Below are positions 1,459 to 57,137 of a stretch of DNA of 64,000 bases, one piece after another. The notes beneath the pieces were generated by a model, which was given only the letters and a program-made list of their open reading frames with translations, ran no database searches and was not told where the DNA came from. Numbering within the stretch: position 1 is the stretch's first letter; every line of letters starts with the position of its first letter. Source of the DNA: Succinivibrio dextrinosolvens (GTDB taxonomy: Bacteria; Pseudomonadota; Gammaproteobacteria; Enterobacterales; Succinivibrionaceae); the NCBI RefSeq assembly GCF_011065405.1, contig NZ_CP047056.1, forward strand, positions 2,254,747-2,318,746, read 5' to 3'. A program made the position numbers and the translations under genes.

Positions 1459-2112
1459 TTAATAGTTGTGTCCGGGCAGTTCTTGTATTGATGAAGCCGG
1501 TATCTCATATAAGGTTCCATAAAGGTCATTTGCGTTCTTGAATAGCTGGCATTTATATTCGCAGTCTTTATAGGTGCTGCTGTTTTCTTCTTTTCTGCTG
1601 TTATATTTATTCTGAGCTAAAAGCTTCTGATGTTTTGTGTAGATATAATCTGCAGTGAATTCTTTTTTATTCAGAATCTCATCAAGATCAAGAGGAATTC
1701 TGGCTTCATTTCTTATAAAGAAATATTTCCTTTCGACCCAGGCTGAACCTGCAAGTTTAAATCCGGTGATAACATTGTTTTCATCGAGTTCAAGAAATAT
1801 ATTCTTGGTAATCTTGGGGATCAGAGTGGATTTCTCTCCGAAAGTCATGGTCCCGTTAATGATATTGTTGGAGTAATCTTCGGTAAAGGCTTTGTTTTCA
1901 AGGTTAAAGCCTGCAATTCTTTTACCGTCTTTCGTTTCTGATATAAAGACCGGCTCCCCGATTTTCAGCATTGCCTCACTGAGAGTGGTACGGTTTTTCC
2001 TGATTGAGGATGCAACACGTCCTGCATCGAGATTGTTATCCTGTGAGGCGGTATTCTTGCAACCGGATAAGAGTGCAAGAGCAACACCTATTGGAATAAA
2101 GAGTTTGAGCAT
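1459..2112 (-). CDS. Putative small outer-membrane lipoprotein
   Basis: The protein begins MLKLFIPIGVALALLSGCK, a short charged start, hydrophobic core and a lipobox ending in the lipidated Cys (LLSGC), so it should be processed by signal peptidase II. I chose the ATG at 2112 rather than an upstream in-frame TTG because an AAGGA site precedes it by about 9 bases. The mature part (about 200 residues) has a segment, LKIGEPVFISETKDGKRIAGF, that resembles the small BamE/OmlA-like fold (turn after a GxP motif). That resemblance is weak and I do not assign a function. It is a single gene, convergent with the LacI regulator and separated from it by a strong terminator. Confidence 0.7.
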   Translation of the reverse strand: MLKLFIPIGVALALLSGCKNTASQDNNLDAGRVASSIRKNRTTLSEAMLKIGEPVFISETKDGKRIAGFNLENKAFTEDYSNNIINGTMTFGEKSTLIPKITKNIFLELDENNVITGFKLAGSAWVERKYFFIRNEARIPLDLDEILNKKEFTADYIYTKHQKLLAQNKYNSRKEENSSTYKDCEYKCQLFKNANDLYGTLYEIPASSIQELPGHNY

Positions 2113-8361: not shown

Positions 8362-8391
8362 AGTGTTGCAATCAACTACTTCTGCAACACT
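8362..8391. promoter_or_regulatory. Upstream activating sequence for the sigma-54 activator
   Basis: AGTGTTGCA and TGCAACACT form a perfect 9-bp inverted repeat with a 12-base spacer. It is centred about 80 bases upstream of the -24/-12 promoter, the usual distance for an enhancer-binding protein, and overlaps the last codon of the activator gene. The same 9-mer recurs twice at the activator's own promoter (10327-10354). Confidence 0.8.
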
Positions 8392-10315
8392 ATTTCTTTT
8401 GCTCTGTTTTCATCCTGCGATAGATTGTGCTTCTGTCAATTCCAAGTATTCTTGCGGCTTTACTTATATTCCCTTCAGCCTGTTCTATTGCCTGTCTGAT
8501 ACGTTCCTCCTCATCTGATACAGGTTTTAAAGAAGCGCTGGCATTCTGAGAACTACTCAGATCCTGGTCATCCCAGTAGGTCATAAGCTGACCACCACTG
8601 ATTTCTTTCTGTTTAGTAACAATAACCATTCTTTCAATGAAGTATCTGAGTTCACGAACATTTCCTGGCCAGCTGTATTTTTCAAGCAGATTCAGCGCCT
8701 CCTTTGAAAAAGCCCTGACTCGACCGTGTTTGCTGCAGTAATGGTCAAGAAAATATTTTGCAAGTACCCTGATATCACCGCTACGGTCTCTTAGAGGAGG
8801 TACTCTGAAGGTTAATACCTTAAGACGATAATAGAGATCCTGTCTGAATTCTCCTTTGCTTACCTGTTGTGCCAGAGGCTTGTTAGTTGCCACAATGATT
8901 CTTACATCCACAGGAATGTATTTGTCATCACCAAGTCTCATTACCTGTCTTTCCTGAATCACTCTGAGTAGTCTGCTCTGGGCATACATTTCCATCTCCG
9001 AGATTTCATCAAGAAAAATCGTACCGTGATGGGCCATTTCAAAAAGGCCTGCCTTTCCTTTATGTTTTGCCCCCGTAAATGCACCTTCTACGTATCCGAA
9101 CAGCTCACTTTCCAGAAGATTAACTGGGAGAGCTGCGCAGTTAACAGCCACAAAAGGTCCGTTTCGTCTGGATGAGGCATTGTGGATACTCTGAGCAAAA
9201 AGTTCTTTTCCCGTTCCAGACTCTCCTGTGATAAGTACAGTCGTATCTACTGCTGCAAATTCTCTGGCTAGTCTCTTGGTTTCTGTGATTTCAGGAGAAC
9301 TTCCAACCAGACTTTCAAAACGGTATTTTGCCAGAAACTTATTTTTTATAACTTCGTTACGTACTTTGATTTCTGTTTCCTGGATTCTGGTAACATCCAT
9401 GAGGGTTATAACCATGCTTACAACTTTAGAATTGACAATAACAGGTTCAATACCAAAGGCTATAAGTTTAGAATTTATCTCAAGAAGAATATCCTGATAG
9501 CATTCCTGTTTATTCTTACAGTTGATTAACGCATTATTGAGTTCCTCCAAAGACGTCTTATCAGAGAATATATTCTGAAGTTCTTTTCCTTTTATGTCCT
9601 CACATTTCAGATTGAATAAGACTTCTGCCTGGGAATTTACATACTGAATCCTGAGATCGCAACTGATGTAAATTACGCCTTCTCTTACAGAATTAACCAG
9701 AGTCATAAATTCTTCAGTATGACGTCTTTCGTTTCGCTTTGCCAGAATCACCTTTTGAGCGGACTTGAAGGCTTCCCTGAGAGCACAGTCACCGGACTCA
9801 ACGATCTGTGTTATAAACCCCTTTTTACTTCCATACGCCATGGAGGTAGCACCTCCCATTAGGATATCTGTTGATTTACGAGGAATGGCGTCAATGATTC
9901 TTTTGATATCTTCAGGTGATTCAAGCTCTAGAATTTCAAGTTCGATTCCCATGATCCTGCTTAGTCTCTGAATATCATTAGACATATTACTGAAAGCAAG
10001 ATAAGTGATTTTAGGATGTTTTACTCCGGTTCTAATTTTTGCTTCGTAGAAGGCCTGAGCAAGATCCTGTCCTGTAACCATAATTTCTATAACCGGAACA
10101 TTAAGCTTTTCCTGCATGAGCATATGGGCAATACCGTATCTGGAGATAATTGCATCTACACTGTCATTCCTGTCAAGTTCTTTTGCCAGAGCAATTGCAT
10201 CATCAATATCATTTCGGAAGAACTCAACCTGATCTTCCATTTTGAGTTCTCTGCAGATTTCCTGACTTCTTTTTATAAGTTTGTTATCAGGAAGTATGAA
10301 GGCGATTTTTGTCAT
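8390..10315 (-). CDS. PrpR-like sigma-54-dependent transcriptional activator
   Basis: The protein of about 641 residues has four parts. A PrpR-type N-terminal sensor domain (about 1-190) is followed by a PAS domain (about 205-310), a AAA+ sigma-54 interaction domain with Walker A GESGTGKE, the GAFTGA loop that contacts sigma-54 and Walker B FLDEI, and a C-terminal Fis-type helix-turn-helix ([20 protein letters not shown]). I prefer the ATG at 10315 because an in-frame ATG at 10339 lacks a ribosome site and lies inside a repeat that looks like an operator. It drives the adjacent glycerate kinase through a near-perfect sigma-54 promoter. Known PrpR senses 2-methylcitrate; the signal here is unknown and could be glycerate-related. 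Confidence 0.9.
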
Positions 10316-10326
10316 AGTTTTCTCGT

Positions 10327-10354
10327 AGTGTTGCAACATGAAAAGAGTGTTGCA
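10327..10354. promoter_or_regulatory. Probable autoregulatory sites of the sigma-54 activator
   Basis: The 9-mer AGTGTTGCA occurs at 10327-10335 and 10346-10354 as direct repeats 19 bp apart, just upstream of the preferred start of the activator gene. The same 9-mer forms the inverted repeat upstream of glycerate kinase. Binding here would let the protein repress its own transcription. Confidence 0.65.
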
Positions 10355-10627: not shown

Positions 10628-11581
10628 ATGACAAATATTAATAACGAATCACGACGTCAGATTATCCTTGAAGAGATAGAAGCTGTCGGACATATCAGTA
10701 CCACCAATGATGCCTTTGCCAAGAAACTGTTCTCGCACAAGGATATTCTTATCGATTTCTTAAACGCTATTCTACAGAGAGAAGGCGAGAATCTGATTAC
10801 AGAACTTAACTACACGGATACAGAATTACACGCCGAAAATTCTTATGGAAAAATCTCCCGACTGGATATCTGCTGTACGCTCGTATCCGGAGAGCAGATA
10901 GATATTGAAATTCAGGTTGCAAATGAAGGTTCATGGATAGGCAGAAGTCTATTCTACTGGTCAAAGCTATATGAGGGAACACTGGTTAAAGGCGAAAGCT
11001 ATGATGAACTCAAGCCGGTTATCTGCATAAACGTGCTTAAATTTAATATATTTACAGATAGCTCAATGCAGGAGCCACACACCACTGCTAAAATATGTAA
11101 TATGGAGAACAGAGAACCGATAACCTCTCTGCTGGAGCTTCATTTTCTTGAGCTTCAGAAGTTTAAAATGAAGAAAATCTCGGAAATGAGTCGCGCTGAA
11201 AAGTGGCTTGCCTATTTTTCAGGTAAGCTTACCAGAAAAGATGAAGCTACAATGCAGAGTGACCAGATTTTAAGTAAGGCAATCGATATAAGGAACAGCT
11301 TTATGAAAGATCCAGAAAATTATGCTGCTTACCTGAACCGTGAGATGGAAATTCTTGACTACAAAAGCATGATGAAACAAAAATTGGAAGAAGGTCGAAA
11401 GGAAGGTCGAGAGGAAGGTCGAGAGGAAGGTCGAGAGGAAGGTCGAGAGGAAGGTCGAGAAGAAGAAAAGATTAGAATCCTACGCAATATGATAGCCAAT
11501 GGTTATAAAACAGATGAAGCTCTAAGAATTATGGGAATTCCTGAAGCACAATGGGAGGCTTTAAAAGCAAAGCTGAAATAA
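10628..11581 (+). CDS. Rpn-family PD-(D/E)XK nuclease / putative transposase
   Basis: The 317-residue protein has the N-terminal TNDAFAKKLF motif and the nuclease core RLDICCTLVSGEQIDIEIQ (Asp80, Glu94, Gln96), typical of the PDDEXK_2/Rpn (recombination-promoting nuclease) group. The C-terminal third is a helix with six EGR(K/E) four-residue repeats encoded by 12-bp units at 11390-11461, followed by a small helical tail IRILRNMIANGYKTDEALRIMG. An internal ATG at 11303 (Met226) has an AGGA site 8 bases upstream and would yield a 92-residue C-terminal protein. E. coli Rpn proteins are known to be toxins controlled by such intragenic C-terminal antitoxins. Three stand-alone copies of the same C-terminal module follow downstream. 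Confidence 0.85.
   Translation: MTNINNESRRQIILEEIEAVGHISTTNDAFAKKLFSHKDILIDFLNAILQREGENLITELNYTDTELHAENSYGKISRLDICCTLVSGEQIDIEIQVANEGSWIGRSLFYWSKLYEGTLVKGESYDELKPVICINVLKFNIFTDSSMQEPHTTAKICNMENREPITSLLELHFLELQKFKMKKISEMSRAEKWLAYFSGKLTRKDEATMQSDQILSKAIDIRNSFMKDPENYAAYLNREMEILDYKSMMKQKLEEGRKEGREEGREEGREEGREEGREEEKIRILRNMIANGYKTDEALRIMGIPEAQWEALKAKLK
11303..11581 (+). CDS. Possible internally initiated Rpn-S-like C-terminal protein
   Basis: The ATG at 11303 is in frame inside the nuclease gene and follows AGGA with an 8-base spacer. The resulting 92-residue product starts MKDPENYAAYLNREMEILD. This aligns position by position with the starts of the three stand-alone copies (MTDQDKNFNYAALINREMEILD-like), so the duplicated unit begins where this internal frame begins. 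Internal translation is inferred, by analogy with E. coli Rpn small proteins. Confidence 0.5.
   Translation: MKDPENYAAYLNREMEILDYKSMMKQKLEEGRKEGREEGREEGREEGREEGREEEKIRILRNMIANGYKTDEALRIMGIPEAQWEALKAKLK
11390..11461 (+). repeat. 12-bp tandem repeat encoding EGR(K/E)
   Basis: Six units of GAAGGTCGARAR lie head to tail, each encoding Glu-Gly-Arg-Lys/Glu. Shorter arrays of the same unit occur in the three downstream copies: three units at 11726-11761, two at 12026-12049 and two intact units at 12362-12385 amid degenerate ones. Length differences by whole 12-bp units indicate slippage or unequal recombination. Confidence 0.9.
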
Positions 11582-11629
11582 CGTTATCGTTGTAAACAAA
11601 TCCGAATCAGACAGACATGAGGTTTACAA

Positions 11630-11881
11630 ATGACAGATCAGGATAAAAACTTCAATTACGCCGCTCTAATAAATCGTGAGATGGAAATTCTTGACTTCAA
11701 AAGCATGATGAAACAAAAATGGGAAGAAGGTCGAGAGGAAGGACGAGAAGAAGGTCGAGAGGAAGAAAAGATTAGAATCCTACGCAATATGATAGCCAAT
11801 GGTTATAAAACAGCTGAAGCTCTAAGAATTATGGGAATTCCGGAAGCACAATGGGAGGCTTTAAAAGTCAAGCTGAAATAA
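11630..11881 (+). CDS. Stand-alone Rpn C-terminal module, copy 1
   Basis: An 83-residue protein equivalent to the last part of the upstream nuclease, with its own ATG and GAGG ribosome site. It has three EGRE repeats, then the shared tail IRILRNMIANGYKTAEALRIMGIPEAQWEALK. It lacks all nuclease residues. If the C-terminal module works like the E. coli Rpn small proteins, it would dimerise through the repeat helix and inhibit the nuclease. It differs from the parent by only a few substitutions (for example Trp for Leu before the repeats, Ala for Asp in the tail). Confidence 0.75.
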   Translation: MTDQDKNFNYAALINREMEILDFKSMMKQKWEEGREEGREEGREEEKIRILRNMIANGYKTAEALRIMGIPEAQWEALKVKLK

Positions 11882-11929
11882 CGTTATCGTTGTAAACAAA
11901 TCCGAATCAGACAGACATGAGGTTTACAA

Positions 11930-12169
11930 ATGACAGATCAGGATAAAAACTTCAATTACGCCGCTCTAATAAATCGTGAGATGGAAATTCTTGACTACAA
12001 AAGCATGATGAAACAAAAATTGGAAGAAGGTCGAAAGGAAGGTCGAGAGGAAGAAAAGATTAGAATCCTACGCAATATGATAGCCAATGGTTATAAAACA
12101 GATGAAGCTCTAAGAATTATGGGAATTCCTGAAGCACAATGGGAGGCTTTAAAAGCAAAGCTGAAATAA
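11930..12169 (+). CDS. Stand-alone Rpn C-terminal module, copy 2
   Basis: A 79-residue protein that begins like copy 1 but has only two repeats (EGRK, EGRE). Its tail is identical to that of the full-length nuclease gene. It has the same 48-base spacer with hairpin and GAGG ribosome site. The near identity at DNA level to its neighbours points to recent duplication. Likely role as for copy 1. Confidence 0.75.
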   Translation: MTDQDKNFNYAALINREMEILDYKSMMKQKLEEGRKEGREEEKIRILRNMIANGYKTDEALRIMGIPEAQWEALKAKLK

Positions 12170-12217
12170 CGTTATCGTTGTAAACAAATCCGAATCAGAC
12201 AGACATGAGGTTTACAA

Positions 12218-12532
12218 ATGACAGATCAGGATAAAAACTTCAATTACGACGCTCTAATAAATCGTGAGATGGAAATTCTTGACTATAAGAGCATGATGAA
12301 ACAGAAATTTAAAGAAGGATTTGAAATAGGGCTTAAAGAAGCACGTGAAGAATTGCGTGAAGAAGGTCGAGAGGAAGGTCGAGAGGAAGGGATTTTACAT
12401 GGTGAAGAAAAAGCAGAGATTAGAATCCTACGCAATATGATAGTCAATGGTTATAAAACAGATGAAGCTCTAAGAATTATGGGAATTCCGGAAGCACAAT
12501 GGGAGGCTTTAAAAGCAAAGATTAAAAAATAA
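12218..12532 (+). CDS. Stand-alone Rpn C-terminal module, copy 3 (diverged repeats)
   Basis: A 104-residue protein with the same start and the same C-terminal tail, but an expanded and diverged repeat helix (EGFEIGLKEAREELREEGREEGREEGILHGEE). It keeps the four-residue periodicity with hydrophobic substitutions and ends KIKK instead of KLK. This helix pattern differs from the nuclease upstream and might recognise a different partner. It is the last gene before a terminator hairpin. Confidence 0.75.
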   Translation: MTDQDKNFNYDALINREMEILDYKSMMKQKFKEGFEIGLKEAREELREEGREEGREEGILHGEEKAEIRILRNMIVNGYKTDEALRIMGIPEAQWEALKAKIKK

Positions 12533-12584: not shown

Positions 12585-14192
12585 TTAAGAAAGATATTTT
12601 TTCAGTGTTCTGCGCACAGCACCTGGACCTTCAATCAATTCGCTAACTATCGTTTCGATCTTATTTCCCAGTCCGGTACTATATAAATCCAAACCAAAAA
12701 TATTCTCGTTAGAAAGAATTGGTTTTAGATTATCTTTAACTGAGTCAGCATCCCCAAGTTTTACATCTGACAGAAGTTCTGTAAGCTCTTTGAGCATAGG
12801 ATCAGGGGATAACTCAAATTTGTTTCCCTCATCATCCACTGCCAGCAGATATCTTATCCAGCCAGCGATAGCCAGAGGCAGAGCTATAAGCTTGTCTGTA
12901 CCGTCAGTTTTTATATGTTCTTTGATGGTATGACCAAAACGGATACCAACCATCTGAGAAATATCAACAGCAATTCTTGCAGAGGTATCTCCCATATAGG
13001 CATTAGGGAATCTAACATTCAGTACTTCATCCAAAAATGTCTTTGGAGACAGAATCTTTGGATCTTCAACTACAGGCAGCCCTTCTACATAACCCAGCTG
13101 TTTAGCCAGCTTTGAGAGTTCTGGATCTTTCATACCGTCAGCAAAGAAGGTATAACCTAAAAGACAGTCATAAGTGCAGAGCGCGGTATGAATAGGGTTC
13201 AGACAGACGGTAACCTTCATGCGTTCTGATTTGTTAACCGTCTCTCTGTCAGTCATGAATACGCCTGCCTTCTCAAAAGGAGGTCTTCCGTTAGGGAAGG
13301 AAGCTTCAATAACAAGATACTGAGGACCTTCGGCATTAACAAAAGGAGCGATATAGGTCTTTTTGGAGGTAACAACTACGTCCATATCCTCAATCCCCAT
13401 ATCCTTGAGATCTTTTGCCAGAGCCTCTCCTGGACGAGGAGTGATTTTATCAATCATTGACCATGGGAATGATACTCTCTTTTCATCTCCAACGTAGGCC
13501 AGAAAATCCTTTTCAAGATAGCCTTTTTCTATCCATTTCTCGGTCATTTCAAGAACACTTTCACGAAGCTTCTTTCCGTTCTGAGAAACGTTATCCATGG
13601 AAACCAGAGCTAGAGGAGTGGCACCAGCTTTAAAACGTCGGTATAACATTGATGTTACAATCGCCATGGCACCGACACATTTATCAGGTCCGTTTTCAAT
13701 ATCGTTTTTAACGTATGGCAGGTAATTGCCATCTGCTCCTTTAAGAGCATAACCTTTTTCAGTGATGGTAAAGCTTACCAGCTGCAGTTCTCTGTTACTA
13801 AAGATTTCCTCAAGACGTTTCATTGCAGATGTGTCTTTAGTATCAGCCTTCAGAGCCTCGCACAGTGACCCTAGAATACTGAAATCTCTTTTGCCATCCT
13901 GATGCAGGGTTGCTGCCAGAACAAGATTGTCAAAAGGTTTGTAGATCTTGTCTACAACGTCATAATCAAAGGTTTCAACACAGGTAATACCTCTGTCTAG
14001 GAGATTATCAGAGATAAGCCTGTCAGCTATTCCACCGATAAAGATTCTGAAGATGTTGCCGATTCCCAGATGAACCCAGCGAGGAGATTCAATAGTTTTA
14101 CGGGCAACCTCCCGGACGTTGTAGGAAGGGAGTTTTACTCCCTTTTCTTTCCAGAAATCCTTACTCTCAAGTGTTGCATATGAAAGTTTCAT
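12585..14192 (-). CDS. Mannitol dehydrogenase-family (long-chain) oxidoreductase
   Basis: The 535-residue protein belongs to the polyol-specific long-chain dehydrogenase family (mannitol, fructuronate, tagaturonate, arabinitol dehydrogenases). The N-terminal half is a Rossmann-like NAD domain (VHLGIGNIFR near residue 40). The catalytic Lys-Asn-His set appears as MKVTVCLNPIHTAL near residue 330. It catalyses ketose/polyol or ketouronate/aldonate interconversion in the cytoplasm. It is the last gene of a long minus-strand unit with a zinc dehydrogenase, an FGGY kinase and an ABC sugar transporter. This favours a sugar alcohol or sugar acid such as a pentitol, but the exact substrate is open. 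Confidence 0.85.
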   Translation of the reverse strand: MKLSYATLESKDFWKEKGVKLPSYNVREVARKTIESPRWVHLGIGNIFRIFIGGIADRLISDNLLDRGITCVETFDYDVVDKIYKPFDNLVLAATLHQDGKRDFSILGSLCEALKADTKDTSAMKRLEEIFSNRELQLVSFTITEKGYALKGADGNYLPYVKNDIENGPDKCVGAMAIVTSMLYRRFKAGATPLALVSMDNVSQNGKKLRESVLEMTEKWIEKGYLEKDFLAYVGDEKRVSFPWSMIDKITPRPGEALAKDLKDMGIEDMDVVVTSKKTYIAPFVNAEGPQYLVIEASFPNGRPPFEKAGVFMTDRETVNKSERMKVTVCLNPIHTALCTYDCLLGYTFFADGMKDPELSKLAKQLGYVEGLPVVEDPKILSPKTFLDEVLNVRFPNAYMGDTSARIAVDISQMVGIRFGHTIKEHIKTDGTDKLIALPLAIAGWIRYLLAVDDEGNKFELSPDPMLKELTELLSDVKLGDADSVKDNLKPILSNENIFGLDLYSTGLGNKIETIVSELIEGPGAVRRTLKKYLS

Positions 14193-51809: not shown

Positions 51810-54800
51810 CTATAGTTTGCTCTTTTCTATTTTGATTACTGTTGTACCCTTAGCGGTTGCAGAACTGCTGTAACTTACAAATCCAAGACTTATAAGATTT
51901 GCAAAATCATAGTGCTCAACTTTCTTTTCACTGTCAGAAATTTCCACACTGAAGGATATCAGCTCATAATTCTTTTTGACATCTTTTGCGGCTCTGGCAA
52001 GAGCTTTAGGATCGTTTTGATATCTGTCTATTACGCTCTGTTTGAGCCTCATTACCTGAGAAACCTTGACAATATCCGATTCAGACTCTTTAAGCTGGTT
52101 TTCCAGTGTTTCGTTGATAAATCCCTGTGCTTTCAGATTTTCTAGCTCCTTGTCACTTAAGGCAGTGGTTACTGTTGTATCGGTAGCGTAATCAATAGAT
52201 CCTGTGATATCTGAGGTATGAACAGTGTGATAGTTTTCTCCGTAGTTTATTCCCATTGCTTTCAGTGGTTTATTCAATAACTCGTTAATCTTCCCGTCAA
52301 TATTGTCTTTGTGATCCGAGATTTTTTCTAATGGTTCAATACCATTTTTTAAGACCTCAGAGGTCTCATTTGCAATAACTTGATATTTTCCGGCAAATGC
52401 AAAAGAAGAAAACTCGGTTTCCACCTTCCACTGGCGGTGAGTTTCCGTGAGAACACCGCTATTGTCAGTAACGGTTTTAGATTCGTGATTATATCCGCCG
52501 CTAAGCTTTAGATCTGCAATATCCGCATTACTCATAACTGTGTCCAGAATTGGATGGTTTTTTGCAAATTCTTCCTCTGGATCGGTGATAGTATCACTGT
52601 AACCTGCGCTTTCTTCATTGAAGGCGGCAAGATTGAGTGCGGCTCCGGCCTTGGCATCAATACCAATTTCTGTTCCGGCTTGAAAGATGGTTCCTGTTGC
52701 AGCTTCGTTTGCAAGTCTAACATCGTCAGCGTTCAGCTGTCCTGTGAACATCTTGCAGATAAATACAGCTGCTTCATCATCTGAGTCAAATTTTAGATTA
52801 AGAACTTTTCCTCCTCCGATGTTACCATTTGCTTCAGCCGAAGCTCCGCAGGCTTCAATAAGATCGATATCCGCCGTGGCTGTGGCTCCAAATATGGTAC
52901 TGGTGTTAACCGCAAGATTTATTTTTCCATTCTGCTCTCGGTTTAAAACCATTCCCGATTTATTCATCAGAGCTAGCGCAAGTTTTAAGGTTACAACTCC
53001 ATTTTCCTGAAGCCCAGTTGATGCTATGGCATCGGTAACATCAAATGGTTTTATTGTAAGCTTGAATTCTTTATCGTTATCAAAGTACTTAACGTTATCC
53101 TTTCCGATGGAGTTTACCATTTCGGTAACAGCTGGCAGATAGGTAGTGAATTCCTGCCTCTTTCGTCTGATTCTAGCAAGATCATTTTCGTTTAGTTTCG
53201 AAAAAGCCGACTGAATTTTAGCTAGACCATTGAACATTTTATTTCTGACGAAAGTCCATGTTCTGGCTAGAATATTCTGGTGTTTACCTTCGCGGAGCCT
53301 TGCCATTGCGAGAATGGTGGAGAGATTGCGGTCAAGTCCACGTTCATTCAGAGCATGAACCATCTCAGAGAGGATCTTATTTTTTTCCTCTCTACTAATT
53401 TCATTAGACTGGTATGCCTCGATAAGTTCATCTTTTCCTGAATAACCGAGTTGAGCTGCAGCATAGCTTGCTGCGAGTCGAACTTGGCTTCTTACCGTAA
53501 GATTTCCAAGCAGCTTGTCTCCAACTGTATAGATCTGTTCACTTAATGCCTTACTGAAAACAGATGCTTTCTCCTGTACAGATCCAAGCTTTTCTCCATA
53601 GTTATTCTCAAAGTCATTTGATATTTTCTTCAGAGTGTTATTTTGTGTAAGAGCTGTCTGAGTGTAAGCACTGGAAAGTGCCTGTTTAGTAGCTTCTGTT
53701 TTATCAACACCATGATTGATATATGAAATCAGTGCATCCGCCTGAGTCATCTTTTCAGAGAACAGATAACTGCCTGCAAAGTTTTTTAGTTTCTCATTAA
53801 AGTCATTTTCTAACGTATTATTCAGGTTGCGTAAATCATCACTGAATGATGTTTTCTGAGAATCTCGAGGATCTGCTGCTTCAAAGGAATCAAGATTAAC
53901 ATTCATTGGAAGCAGTTTTATAGAGGCTATAAGCTCTTTTTTCTCGTCAAATGAAAGCTTGCCTTCTGTTACAGCTGCATATAGAGACGTTTCCTCCTCA
54001 TCGTCAAAGCCAAGCTGTTGACACAGATCATTTAAAATAAGTTTCTCAATTGCAACAAGCTCTTTGTCATCAGTTTTTAAATTTCCTGAACTTAAGGATG
54101 TAAGTTTTGCATTGATTTTTACGTTTTCTTCAAAGGTCAGCTGCTGAGCCTTTTTTATATTAGTTTCGCTGTCTCCGTTTTTTAAGATAAATGCCGTTCC
54201 TTTGTCTTTTGCGATAAATTGACTATAGCTATCACCATATCTTAAAGCTGTAATCTGCACGTACTTTGAAAGTAAAAGCTTTGCTGTTTTACTTAGAGGC
54301 TTTACTCTGCAGTCCTGAGTAAATCTGTCCTTGAGAGTGAGGAGGAGCTCATCACATTTCTTTTCAAACTCGGCAATTTTATCTGCTGAAAACTTTGGAT
54401 CTGACGGAGGTGTGTTAATGCCGCTCGCTATAAGCATATGCTGTTTGGCCAGATAGTTGTTTAGCTCTTTTCCAAAGCTGTAATCCTCAGATGTCAGACT
54501 TAATTTTTCAGGATGTTCAATACCAATTGCTTTTAGAGCTCTGTTATCAAGTAAATCCAAATCATCTATCAGATTGTCTCTTAGGGTAACCAATGTTACT
54601 GCAACATCCTCACCCTTGGGGATTTGACCTGGTTCTAATCCCTGAGCTGCAAGAAGTTGTGAGAGAACTGGATTCTGCAGGACCTCATTTCTGGATTTAA
54701 TAAGAGAGGAGAATTTTTCTCCTATCCCTTTGTATTTGCTGTTAACTTCATCCATTAAAACAGATTTGTCAATGGATTCATGCAGTAGTTTTTCTGGATC

Positions 54801-57137
54801 GGCTATGTCCTTAAACTGACTAGTACCGCCTTTAAGTATGTTCTGGTTGATGAAAATCAGCTCTTTGCGCATTTCATCTAGGCACAGCATTTTCTTTCCT
54901 GCCATGCTTTCATTAGACATGGCTTTTAAAATTTTTCCGTCATTGAGTGAATTCAGTTTGCTTGTGATCTCATCAACATTCTTTGACTGAGACTCTTTTC
55001 GGAATAAACCGAAAGACTGAGTCTTCATGAGTTTTTTTACATTGTCAGATAATGAATTCTGAAAATCCTTTCTAGCGTTTTCTCCTGAGTGGTTTGCAGG
55101 AGCTAACAGAGGAATATCTGGTGACGATTCCTCTGCTGTAATTGAGTAGATTTGTTTTGGAACTCTAGAAATCTCATTCCTTTCAAGTTTTGTTGCCATT
55201 TCTGTATGATAGGCTGCACCTAGAATGCTATTCCAAATTGTTCTGCAGTGTTTGAGTTTCCCTAAAACCGCAGCATCTAAAAGGTCTTTTAATAAACTAC
55301 TATCAATTTCTGATGGTTTTCCATTTAATATTTTAATAAGTTTCTGTTCCAGTATGAAATCTTCATACTGCTGTGGATTTGCCTTTAATTCCTCTGGAGT
55401 TGGAGGAATATTCCAGTGTTGAAGATCTCCCTTTTCAAGATCAAGTTTAGCGGCCTGTTTGATTAGGTTGAGATTTAAGTACTTTCCACATTTCTGAGAA
55501 AGTAGTTCATCATGACTCTGAGAAAGCACAGAGGCAACGGCAGCAAATGCGTCGCTAGAAGACTCTGACTGTTCTATATTATCTGCAAGTCTGTCTATGA
55601 ATGCGGCTCCGTTTTCCTTTCCATCAAGAATACTGCAGATTCTTTCAATTACTTCAGTACACTTTGCAGAGGTAATTTCATATGAATCGTTCTTTTTTGC
55701 TCCCCCTAAAATAGCAAAACTCTTTAGATCGAACTGATTTAAGGTAAGAGTCTGGATAATATCAGGAAAGTGATTAAGTAGATTATCATCGCTGTTTATA
55801 GTATTTAAAATTGACTTTAGAGTTTTTAGATTTTGTGTCGAGTCAAGAGAATCGCTCTGAACCGGAATTTTTGCAAGGTTAAGACTCAGGATTTTAGATA
55901 GAGGTTTACTGTGTTCTTCTAACAGCTCTCGACCAATCATATCTCCAATTTTCGTAAGCTCTGATGCCAAATTGATATTGGAGAGAGGATTATCCAAAAG
56001 AGAAACTATCCTGCCACCGATTTTCTCAAAGGCCTCTCTTGAATAATTCTCAATCTTCTGTTTAAGATAAGTATTTTCTGTCTCACCTTCCAATCTTTTC
56101 CGAAGATTGCTGAGGGTAAGTCCTTTTAAATTCTTTGCCTTAAAGGTAAGCTCGATATCTTTTGCTATTTTTTTTAGATTATCAATTCGCGGTTTCAGAT
56201 CTTGCTCAATCTCTTTTTTTAGTTCTCCTAACACCTCACCTTCAATCAGAGAACTTATTCCGCACATAGATGGAACGTTAGCAGTCTGCGAGGATTTGTT
56301 ATAGCTTAATGTGGTAAATTTTAAGGTTTCTGGATTTACATTCTTAAGATTTGCGATTGCCTGTTTGTATTCTTCGTGAAGCTTTTTAATCTCAGATGCA
56401 ACTGTTTTCTTATTTTCTGCGATTGCATTGATTTTATTCTTAAACTCATTGAGGGCATGAGTTTCCTTTAATTTTTTGTTAGCAGGCAGATTATTTAACA
56501 GTTCTAACAGGTTAGCTTTGGCTTTATCAATATCTTTTTCTTCACAGGATAGAAGTTCTCCCATAAGCCCCAGAAGTTGCATTTGAAGTTTACTGTCAGC
56601 TCCTGTTTGATTCTCTTTTGCAAATTGGTTGCAGAAAGTGCTAGTGAATTTGAAAGCAAACATTAGATCTAGAAATGCTTTTTGTTCACTTGTTTTTGCT
56701 GACTTATAGACATTACCCTGTGTGTTAAGATTGTTGTTTCCATCAAGAATGGATAGACATTTTTCTTTAAAGTTAAGATCGCAGTCTGCTGCCTTCATCT
56801 GAAGCTGCATTAGGTGAGGAGCCTGTTTTGTAAGAATATTGCTGATTAGCGTATTCTCTAGATTGGTTAGAAAGAAAAGTTTCTGTTCTTTTAATAGAGT
56901 TTTGCTGCCTCCTTTATTTCTTATAGAATCTTCAAGAGTCATCAGTTGAGAACGTACCTTTTCAATTGAATTTCCCTTTGTTATTGATAGATTTTTTATT
57001 TTTTTATGCAGTGACAGTCCTTCTTTTAGATTATCTTCTTGAGCTTGGGAAGTTTTTTTCTCTGCATTCTGATTTTGCTGAATTTGAATATTAGCTGTAT
57101 TGATATTGTCTCGATTTTTAACTGAAAAATCACTCAT
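51810..57137 (-). CDS. Giant (1775-residue) effector-like protein of unknown family
   Basis: The start has an AAGGAG ribosome site. Residues about 1-40 are polar and disordered (Asn, Gln, Ser, Lys; no signal peptide), as expected for type III effectors. Most of the protein to about residue 1330 is helical and Leu/Lys/Glu-rich with no enzyme motif seen. The last 430 residues are rich in amphipathic beta strands (INLAVNTSTIFGATATADID, TGTIFQAGTEIGIDAKAGAAL, ISLGFVSYSSSATAKGTTVI). Size and a barrel-like C-terminal region recall AvrE-family effectors, but I see no conclusive motif. It heads an apparent operon with a TAXI lipoprotein and GltS. Function unknown. Confidence 0.75.
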   Translation of the reverse strand: MSDFSVKNRDNINTANIQIQQNQNAEKKTSQAQEDNLKEGLSLHKKIKNLSITKGNSIEKVRSQLMTLEDSIRNKGGSKTLLKEQKLFFLTNLENTLISNILTKQAPHLMQLQMKAADCDLNFKEKCLSILDGNNNLNTQGNVYKSAKTSEQKAFLDLMFAFKFTSTFCNQFAKENQTGADSKLQMQLLGLMGELLSCEEKDIDKAKANLLELLNNLPANKKLKETHALNEFKNKINAIAENKKTVASEIKKLHEEYKQAIANLKNVNPETLKFTTLSYNKSSQTANVPSMCGISSLIEGEVLGELKKEIEQDLKPRIDNLKKIAKDIELTFKAKNLKGLTLSNLRKRLEGETENTYLKQKIENYSREAFEKIGGRIVSLLDNPLSNINLASELTKIGDMIGRELLEEHSKPLSKILSLNLAKIPVQSDSLDSTQNLKTLKSILNTINSDDNLLNHFPDIIQTLTLNQFDLKSFAILGGAKKNDSYEITSAKCTEVIERICSILDGKENGAAFIDRLADNIEQSESSSDAFAAVASVLSQSHDELLSQKCGKYLNLNLIKQAAKLDLEKGDLQHWNIPPTPEELKANPQQYEDFILEQKLIKILNGKPSEIDSSLLKDLLDAAVLGKLKHCRTIWNSILGAAYHTEMATKLERNEISRVPKQIYSITAEESSPDIPLLAPANHSGENARKDFQNSLSDNVKKLMKTQSFGLFRKESQSKNVDEITSKLNSLNDGKILKAMSNESMAGKKMLCLDEMRKELIFINQNILKGGTSQFKDIADPEKLLHESIDKSVLMDEVNSKYKGIGEKFSSLIKSRNEVLQNPVLSQLLAAQGLEPGQIPKGEDVAVTLVTLRDNLIDDLDLLDNRALKAIGIEHPEKLSLTSEDYSFGKELNNYLAKQHMLIASGINTPPSDPKFSADKIAEFEKKCDELLLTLKDRFTQDCRVKPLSKTAKLLLSKYVQITALRYGDSYSQFIAKDKGTAFILKNGDSETNIKKAQQLTFEENVKINAKLTSLSSGNLKTDDKELVAIEKLILNDLCQQLGFDDEEETSLYAAVTEGKLSFDEKKELIASIKLLPMNVNLDSFEAADPRDSQKTSFSDDLRNLNNTLENDFNEKLKNFAGSYLFSEKMTQADALISYINHGVDKTEATKQALSSAYTQTALTQNNTLKKISNDFENNYGEKLGSVQEKASVFSKALSEQIYTVGDKLLGNLTVRSQVRLAASYAAAQLGYSGKDELIEAYQSNEISREEKNKILSEMVHALNERGLDRNLSTILAMARLREGKHQNILARTWTFVRNKMFNGLAKIQSAFSKLNENDLARIRRKRQEFTTYLPAVTEMVNSIGKDNVKYFDNDKEFKLTIKPFDVTDAIASTGLQENGVVTLKLALALMNKSGMVLNREQNGKINLAVNTSTIFGATATADIDLIEACGASAEANGNIGGGKVLNLKFDSDDEAAVFICKMFTGQLNADDVRLANEAATGTIFQAGTEIGIDAKAGAALNLAAFNEESAGYSDTITDPEEEFAKNHPILDTVMSNADIADLKLSGGYNHESKTVTDNSGVLTETHRQWKVETEFSSFAFAGKYQVIANETSEVLKNGIEPLEKISDHKDNIDGKINELLNKPLKAMGINYGENYHTVHTSDITGSIDYATDTTVTTALSDKELENLKAQGFINETLENQLKESESDIVKVSQVMRLKQSVIDRYQNDPKALARAAKDVKKNYELISFSVEISDSEKKVEHYDFANLISLGFVSYSSSATAKGTTVIKIEKSKL

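Follow-up and report, generated by a model that had tools for sequence, protein, structure and literature searches.

A stretch of 64,000 nucleotides from Succinivibrio dextrinosolvens (hereafter the window, whose coordinates are used throughout) carries at 10628..12532 a gene for an Rpn-family nuclease, RpnL, followed by three free copies of its antitoxin-like C-terminal module, RpnS. We give about an even chance to the reading that this is an Rpn toxin-antitoxin locus, composed of the RpnL nuclease and an intragenic RpnS, whose free, probably translated RpnS cassettes form a recombining bank. The bank would hold alternative tails for RpnL, and recombination between near-identical stretches would rewrite the RpnL tail; because RpnS is encoded inside that same tail, toxin and antitoxin would change together and stay matched. 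The free copies would bind Rpn proteins of other lengths, be they other alleles or older versions of the locus's own toxin. The host genome is a single contig of 3.47 Mb, and the named records nearest to it are RUG260, from an uncultured Succinatimonas (best segment 95%), and S. dextrinosolvens DSM 3072 (71%); bacteria of the Succinivibrionaceae type are of rumen origin.

RpnL/RpnS systems have been described in Escherichia coli as RpnA-E and RpnP2 (Zhong et al. 2023, PMC10327210), and like these the locus combines a PD-(D/E)XK nuclease, an intragenic C-terminal RpnS with an in-frame start, four-residue repeats of variable number and a downstream free copy. All four open reading frames (ORFs) and the features within and between them lie on the plus strand. 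RpnL (10628..11581) has 317 residues, and the three free modules, delimited from the ORF list and their match to the end of TIGR01784, comprise 83 residues (module 1, 11630..11881), 79 residues (module 2, 11930..12169) and 104 residues (module 3, 12218..12532). By base comparison the 48 bases 5' of each small ORF are the same in all three cases, forming leaders at 11582..11629, 11882..11929 and 12170..12217 with a GAGG ribosome site. Tandem units of 300 and 288 bases were found with Tandem Repeats Finder (TRF) at scores of 1587 and 1556, and the small proteins align with the RpnL tail at scores of 324-344, as compared with at most 55 for shuffled copies (60 each), showing that the tandem architecture does not arise by chance. 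Coordinates and leaders agree with the first-pass annotation, which had described one full-length ORF and three tandem copies of its tail with their own starts, ribosome sites and a common 48-base leader. The differing repeat counts that it gave were also recovered from the translations: six EGR[E/K] units in RpnL, encoded by a 12-base repeat at 11390..11465 (6.3 copies, TRF score 138), three in module 1, two in module 2 and a series of diverged tetrads in module 3 (KEGFEIGLKEAR...GILHGEEKAE).

By its sequence RpnL is an Rpn-family nuclease with its catalytic residues kept, in line with the original assignment. Profile searches gave matches well above the cut-offs to PF12784 (E 1.4e-50, 172.6 bits, cut-off 27.4) and TIGR01784 (E 8.3e-42, 143.9 bits, cut-off 52.1). 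In an alignment with K-12 RpnC, RpnB and RpnE, which did not include RpnA, D28 and D80 fall in invariant columns. RpnL also has an E94-x-Q96 motif, which the aligner places four columns off the E. coli ExQ motif in that comparison; both E94 and Q96 are invariant in a 15-row alignment. For RpnA itself the catalytic residues are given as D11, D63, E82 and Q84 in PMC5350276. The structural comparisons did not add support to the reading of the locus. A profile of RpnL matched 7TH0, in which RpnS folds as a dimeric three-helix bundle, weakly (E 0.27), 7TH0 was not listed for a profile of the free modules, and in Foldseek searches with two AlphaFold models (predicted local distance difference test scores of 63.6 and 77.1) it was not among the 50 matches listed for either. 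PADLOC gave nothing beyond weak matches to one profile, labelled 'putative invertase' (E 0.0093, 0.041), and these were not used.

The intragenic RpnS is predicted to start at M226 of RpnL, an in-frame ATG with a Shine-Dalgarno-like motif, and to comprise 92 residues (11303..11581). Its likely ribosome site, AAGGA (11290..11294), lies eight bases upstream. When start codons (ATG/GTG/TTG) with such a motif were sought in the three forward frames, only two were found besides the gene's own start, and M226 is one of them. Both the methionine and AGGA/AAGG are kept in 7/7 of the closest RpnL frames (the window, L021, L052 and L061-L064; L-numbers denote loci and G-numbers genomes, and L021 lies on G000:C1, the host genome). 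Furthermore, among six RpnL genes the same codon is used at 9 of the 12 invariant residues from -8 to +7 around M226, as compared with 31/127 in the block as a whole (P 1.4e-4 by a hypergeometric test on a region picked post hoc). This stretch, tied with one overlapping window, ranks at the top of the block, the ribosome site lies inside the strongest run of synonymous conservation, and removing the near-identical RUG260 row left the result unchanged. Synonymous conservation at 11303 is a new finding and has the appearance of an internal start under selection. The more distant L022, L023, L066 and L115 keep the methionine without the ribosome-site motif, and L065 has neither.

The sequences further indicate that RpnL tails and free modules have exchanged. 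We measured helix length as the number of residues between the fixed anchors KQK...IRIL, which gave 29 for RpnL and its intragenic RpnS and 17, 13 and 37 for modules 1, 2 and 3. Three further Rpn loci are present in the host genome: site B (L021, G000:C1:3181000-3189500, minus strand), a site near clpX (L023) and L022, the last two with one free module each. Site B, beside a heavy-metal P-type ATPase, holds a second RpnL copy that is 98% alike over residues 1-232 and whose tail piece has a helix of 21 residues. Across the window, site B and RUG260 the helix begins as one of two 5' types, L-EEGRK or F-KEGFEIG, and ends as one of two 3' types, REEEK or GI[LV]HGEEKAE. The window RpnL, module 2 and the site B tail combine L with EEEK and module 3 combines F with HGEEKAE, while in RUG260 RpnL has L with HGEEKAE and the module has F with EEEK. 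All four combinations of helix halves thus occur among six of the seven sequences, module 1, which begins with W, being set aside. As block differences of such size hardly arise twice by mutation, we conclude that the helix halves have recombined inside the repeats, the main caveat being a mis-joined RUG260 assembly. The part after the helix is identical at 32-36 of 36 residues among the window and RUG260 sequences compared.

Two further comparisons point the same way. Without recourse to RUG260, module 2 has the leader and N-terminus of modules 1 and 3, yet its last 36 codons show 0 differences from those of RpnL, as compared with four base differences each for modules 1 and 3. We read this identical tail as the probable trace of a recent copy event, for which either direction is possible. 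L023 and its counterpart in G031, L066, both lie at the clpX site and run collinear for 3.5 kb (89.6%), and their RpnL bodies are identical at 188/200 residues (94%), whereas the RpnL tails share only 20/37. The L066 RpnL tail instead matches the free module of L023 at 30/37; the L023 RpnL tail matches its own module at 22/37. The two modules of DSM 3072 have a common N-terminus and two tail types, one of which agrees at 22/23 residues with an RpnL tail from DSM 3072 itself. RUG260 (L059, flank 95.3% identical over 3 kb) has, at the site of the window locus, a last module of a different tail type, and DSM 3072 (L062) has RpnL alone there. Thus the proposal that the antitoxin module was duplicated out of the gene holds as far as the tail copies go, but duplication alone does not describe the locus: module 2 carries the tail of RpnL and the RpnL tails of relatives resemble free modules found elsewhere, so that sequence has moved between gene and modules. 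We also considered modules 1 and 2 as proven chimeras on the basis of bases in their N-segments. This was rejected, as DSM 3072 too has the bases that they share with RpnL, which may thus be ancestral, and the identical tail of module 2 alone was kept as evidence.

Several points weigh against this account of exchange. The L/F by EEEK/HGEEKAE case depends on RUG260, a metagenome assembly that could contain mis-joins at the 12-base repeats. No repeats are involved in the case of L023 and L066, but L066 comes from a draft, and the reciprocal likeness is absent (L023 RpnL tail against L066 module, 20/37). Moreover, exchange among tandem copies also occurs without selection.

Probably the free modules are also translated. 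Their first eight residues, MTDQDKNF, are absent from RpnL and specific to free modules, and this N-terminus has relatives in other species. All three match the end of TIGR01784 (E 1.2e-8, 2.7e-6 and 2.8e-5 for modules 1-3, all below the whole-protein cut-off). Module 3 also matches FliH models about equally (best E 3.9e-5), which we take as a composition effect of its charged helix. For eight module pairs involving the module of G031 or the second module of DSM 3072, the ratio of nonsynonymous to synonymous substitution rates (dN/dS) was 0.07-0.14 with dS >1.3; two pairs with the first DSM 3072 module gave no finite dS. The RpnL tails of the window and RUG260 gave 0.05 and 0.04 against that of G031, and module 1 gave 0.08 against the RUG260 module, on few changes. 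An outlier of 0.78, for the window RpnL against the DSM 3072 site-A RpnL, is explained by the different types of the two tails. The leader core CAGACAGACATGAGGTTTA is unchanged in DSM 3072, one base off in RUG260 and two bases off in G031, while G031 and DSM 3072 have a diverged upstream half. Saturation at synonymous sites, together with a retained ribosome site and frame, leads us to infer that the modules are translated. On the other side, dN/dS is 0.11-0.34 for the three module pairs within the window and 0.52 for the close pair of module 3 and the RUG260 module, on few changes in both cases; the signature of selection could partly come from RpnL tails by way of exchange; and promoter-like sites are as frequent as in shuffled sequence (6 vs 6.4), so internal promoters were not used in the argument. 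An inverted repeat (TTGTAAAC/GTTTACAA) that frames each leader was considered as a conserved leader hairpin and rejected, as neither the G031 nor the DSM 3072 leader has it and the RNA folds no more stably than shuffled sequence (z -0.24).

The main rival explanation is that the bank is a neutral by-product: 12-base repeats and near-identical flanks would lead to slippage or unequal crossing-over, and the resulting truncated tails would persist briefly and then decay. We consider this rather unlikely, even though some of the data fit it well. Outside the helix modules 1 and 2 are near-identical to the RpnL tail and hence recent, and array sizes vary, down to the lone RpnL of DSM 3072 (L062). 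Signs of decay likewise speak for this rival and against a maintained bank: the last module of RUG260 at the window's site has a premature stop, and the site B RpnL is split by an IS21-like insertion sequence (IS) directly after FMKDP, that is, at the internal start, as an IS-like element may also have done in DSM 3072, judging from contig ends. Decay therefore also occurs, and not all copies are kept. Neutral origin fits less well with modules that each have a start and ribosome site of their own and an N-terminus peculiar to free modules, for which other species have relatives, with the low dN/dS at saturated dS against G031 and DSM 3072, and with a leader core that is largely kept.

It also fits less well with the distribution of the modules. 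The family sample comprised 56 RpnL frames, with matches for 17; we set aside the duplicates L053 and L060 together with four module-less Clostridia loci, leaving 50. At least 15 of these 50 have one or more downstream modules. This is a lower bound, as several loci stop at a contig edge soon after RpnL, and the sample is not random since its loci came from a search with the window RpnL; the 16th remaining match row, the second gene of L083, has upstream matches only. In the rest of the class (40 loci with 40 RpnL frames, from a search in which 29/184 genomes had a match), modules accompany 1/40 RpnL frames, namely L175 of G174, where an array with helix lengths of -12 and -24 relative to the toxin is joined by a more distant 211-residue frame without a length difference. 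That rarity suggests no general need of Rpn toxins for free modules, and in this respect tells against a bank with a function. The four Clostridia loci that were set aside, from Clostridium/Lachnospiraceae, had been fetched by similarity, and none has a module. The first-pass annotation had proposed a search for the same architecture in other genomes, and such arrays do recur: two modules each at L067 (the second only 34% alike), L075, L080 and L086, two in tandem at DSM 3072 site B (identified by hand, outside the 50-frame count), and the array at L175. In the 50-frame count the window has three. Free modules carried by phages were not found in 50,697 phage records, with either a window module or an E. 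coli module as query, and of 32 IMG/VR stretches matched by two peptide patterns that reach close relatives, none encodes a relative.

What the bank might do depends on the helix. Its length is 1 mod 4 in 13/13 sequences (range 9-37), so that lengths in the genus vary only in steps of four. In RpnC, an RpnC-S with one extra repeat fails to block RpnC-L, and likewise the reverse (PMC10327210, Fig. 4D). Tallied by hand, the helix region is unlike that of the adjacent RpnL in 17/21 family modules. For 14 of these 17 the difference is a multiple of four; the other three come from L067 (its second module, which is diverged) and L086 (both modules, next to an RpnL with one undetermined base). We made the same comparison at 13 E. 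coli rpnC loci taken from 60 evenly spread rows, of which 11 have a module and were picked since span or annotation suggested one. Module and rpnC tail differ in length in 11/11 pairs (10 of them distinct, L123 and L132 having the same tail and module; two modules, L126 and L129, are annotated as incomplete). As a one-repeat mismatch abolishes inhibition in RpnC, the prediction is that most free modules leave the neighbouring RpnL unrestrained and are not antitoxins of the adjacent toxin; it rests on one published pair. Counted against it are the modules without a helix difference (L096, L097, the first module of L067, and L083, where the overlap is only partial) and a matched pair outside the 21-module tally, the RpnL and module of G031, both 33. 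In addition, only 3/11 E. coli differences are multiples of four (-12, +8, -20), and the other 8/11 (-14, -10, -6) leave a remainder of two, implying an offset in those free modules that whole repeats do not fully account for.

The mismatches bear directly on a simpler explanation, in which the free modules provide an extra dose of cognate antitoxin, raising the supply of RpnS for the adjacent RpnL, and the length difference is tolerated. The modules lie on the same strand directly after the toxin, the G031 pair is matched, and the part after the helix is nearly invariant in the window and RUG260, all of which would suit this explanation. Nevertheless, we judge it quite improbable, given the loss of RpnC inhibition with a single mismatched repeat and the frequency of mismatch in both the family and the E. 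coli rpnC modules.

The first-pass annotation had instead suggested an immunity bank, in which free RpnS proteins would neutralise Rpn toxins of other helix lengths, such as alleles acquired by gene transfer. Consistent with this idea, module lengths are mostly unlike that of the adjacent toxin, and RpnS is specific for its own toxin, in RpnC for its repeat number (PMC10327210). In the host genome, tails of 29 and 21 residues are also found on a pair of RpnL bodies that are 98% alike, the second of them now split, so alleles do meet. However, none of the seven close RpnL tails (29, 25, 21, 33, 13, 25, and 17 for L064) has the 37 of module 3, and the lengths 17 and 13 recur solely with another tail type (L064, L063). 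The suggestion of neutralising other alleles therefore keeps its basis in the unlike lengths, but no module equals any of the seven close tails in both length and type, and as a full account of the locus we think the immunity bank somewhat unlikely. A bolder reading, to which we give clearly less than an even chance, is a tail-switching locus: expressed cassettes that differ in helix length and tail type would recombine into the 3' end of RpnL, one exchange would re-specify toxin and antitoxin together, with no unmatched stage, and during the switch leftover copies would shield the cell against Rpn alleles, be they foreign or its own former ones.

For toxin-antitoxin systems it is an open problem how a toxin can acquire a new specificity while the antitoxin still lags behind and the cell nevertheless survives. 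With the antitoxin inside the toxin gene, one exchange of tails would alter both at once, and naturally banked tails whose repeat lengths are known make this idea of simultaneous change testable.

In contact-dependent inhibition (CDI) and Rhs systems the body is a large secreted protein, CdiA or Rhs. No such domain came up when the four proteins of the locus were scanned against Pfam and NCBIfam, so the likeness to these systems is one of arrangement only. It consists in a conserved body, a variable C-terminal specificity module and spare modules in the locus, and an orphan module of one strain can almost equal the tail of the main gene in a second strain (Poole et al. 2011, PMC3150448). The proteins are unrelated: CDI/Rhs modules are toxin and immunity pairs, whereas the window cassette would be the antitoxin/dimerisation tail of an intracellular nuclease. 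A second parallel is found in the type I restriction enzymes EcoR124I/II, where the number of four-residue repeats (2 or 3) sets specificity; those repeats set the spacing of the DNA target and not toxin-antitoxin pairing, and a spare bank of tails is not mentioned for them (PMC10327210).

The E. coli systems remain the closest comparison. The window nuclease belongs to PF12784/TIGR01784 and E. coli RpnC to PF04754, and the window has three free modules (17, 13 and 37 as against 29) and exchange between tail and module, where E. coli has one free copy. Such a copy lies downstream as ypaA/RpnE-S and, in some strains, as rpnC-S; arrays of rpn genes formed by tandem duplication are mentioned, and recombination is suggested as the source of the downstream copies (PMC10327210). 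The impression that an expanded array had not been described is accordingly only partly right: single free RpnS copies were already reported, which leaves the bank of three with several lengths as the unusual feature. Neither that bank, nor frequent length mismatch, nor tail exchange appears in the main text of PMC10327210 (the supplement and journal version were outside our scope), and literature searches returned no other paper plainly on RpnS; in PMC12707154, Rpn is mentioned twice, once as a reference. New here are the conservation of the internal start, the frequent length mismatch and the tail-module exchange; the family and single free copies are already known. In K-12, ypaA is by eye one tetrad longer than rpnE (L122), so the reported second RpnE-S copy is not length-matched there; the annotation marks RpnE as inactive and treats ypaA as a pseudogene. 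As the lengths of E. coli ypaA and rpnC-S mismatch those of their neighbours in the strains compared, the question of what these copies are for also arises.

Some observations on individual loci may be added. The site B arrays of L021 (~1745-1807, minus strand) and L052 (~1245-1310) end in a leader and the first four module codons followed by an A-run, which both seem to share as what is left of a module since lost. In L064 and L101, which by inference both belong to DSM 3072, an RpnL tail stops at a contig end and a matching remainder lies near another contig end, which suggests a different insertion in the site-B RpnL of that strain. In G031 the contigs at the end of L061 and the start of L076 break off within one and the same leader sequence, which is what an assembly defeated by several modules with a common leader would produce. 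L175 (G174:C1:3793300-3801500) is a cluster of Rpn genes with several free tails of RRFGPLP type and QQGL-like repeats, and between its Rpn genes and tails lie palindromes that we take to resemble repetitive extragenic palindromic (REP) elements. Finally, the locus in the window is flanked on the minus strand by genes for a PrpR-like sigma-54 regulator (8390-10339) and a reductase of the mannitol dehydrogenase family (12585-14192); these two neighbours are not defence genes. A very long ORF of 1775 residues lies at 51810-57137 of the window, also on the minus strand.

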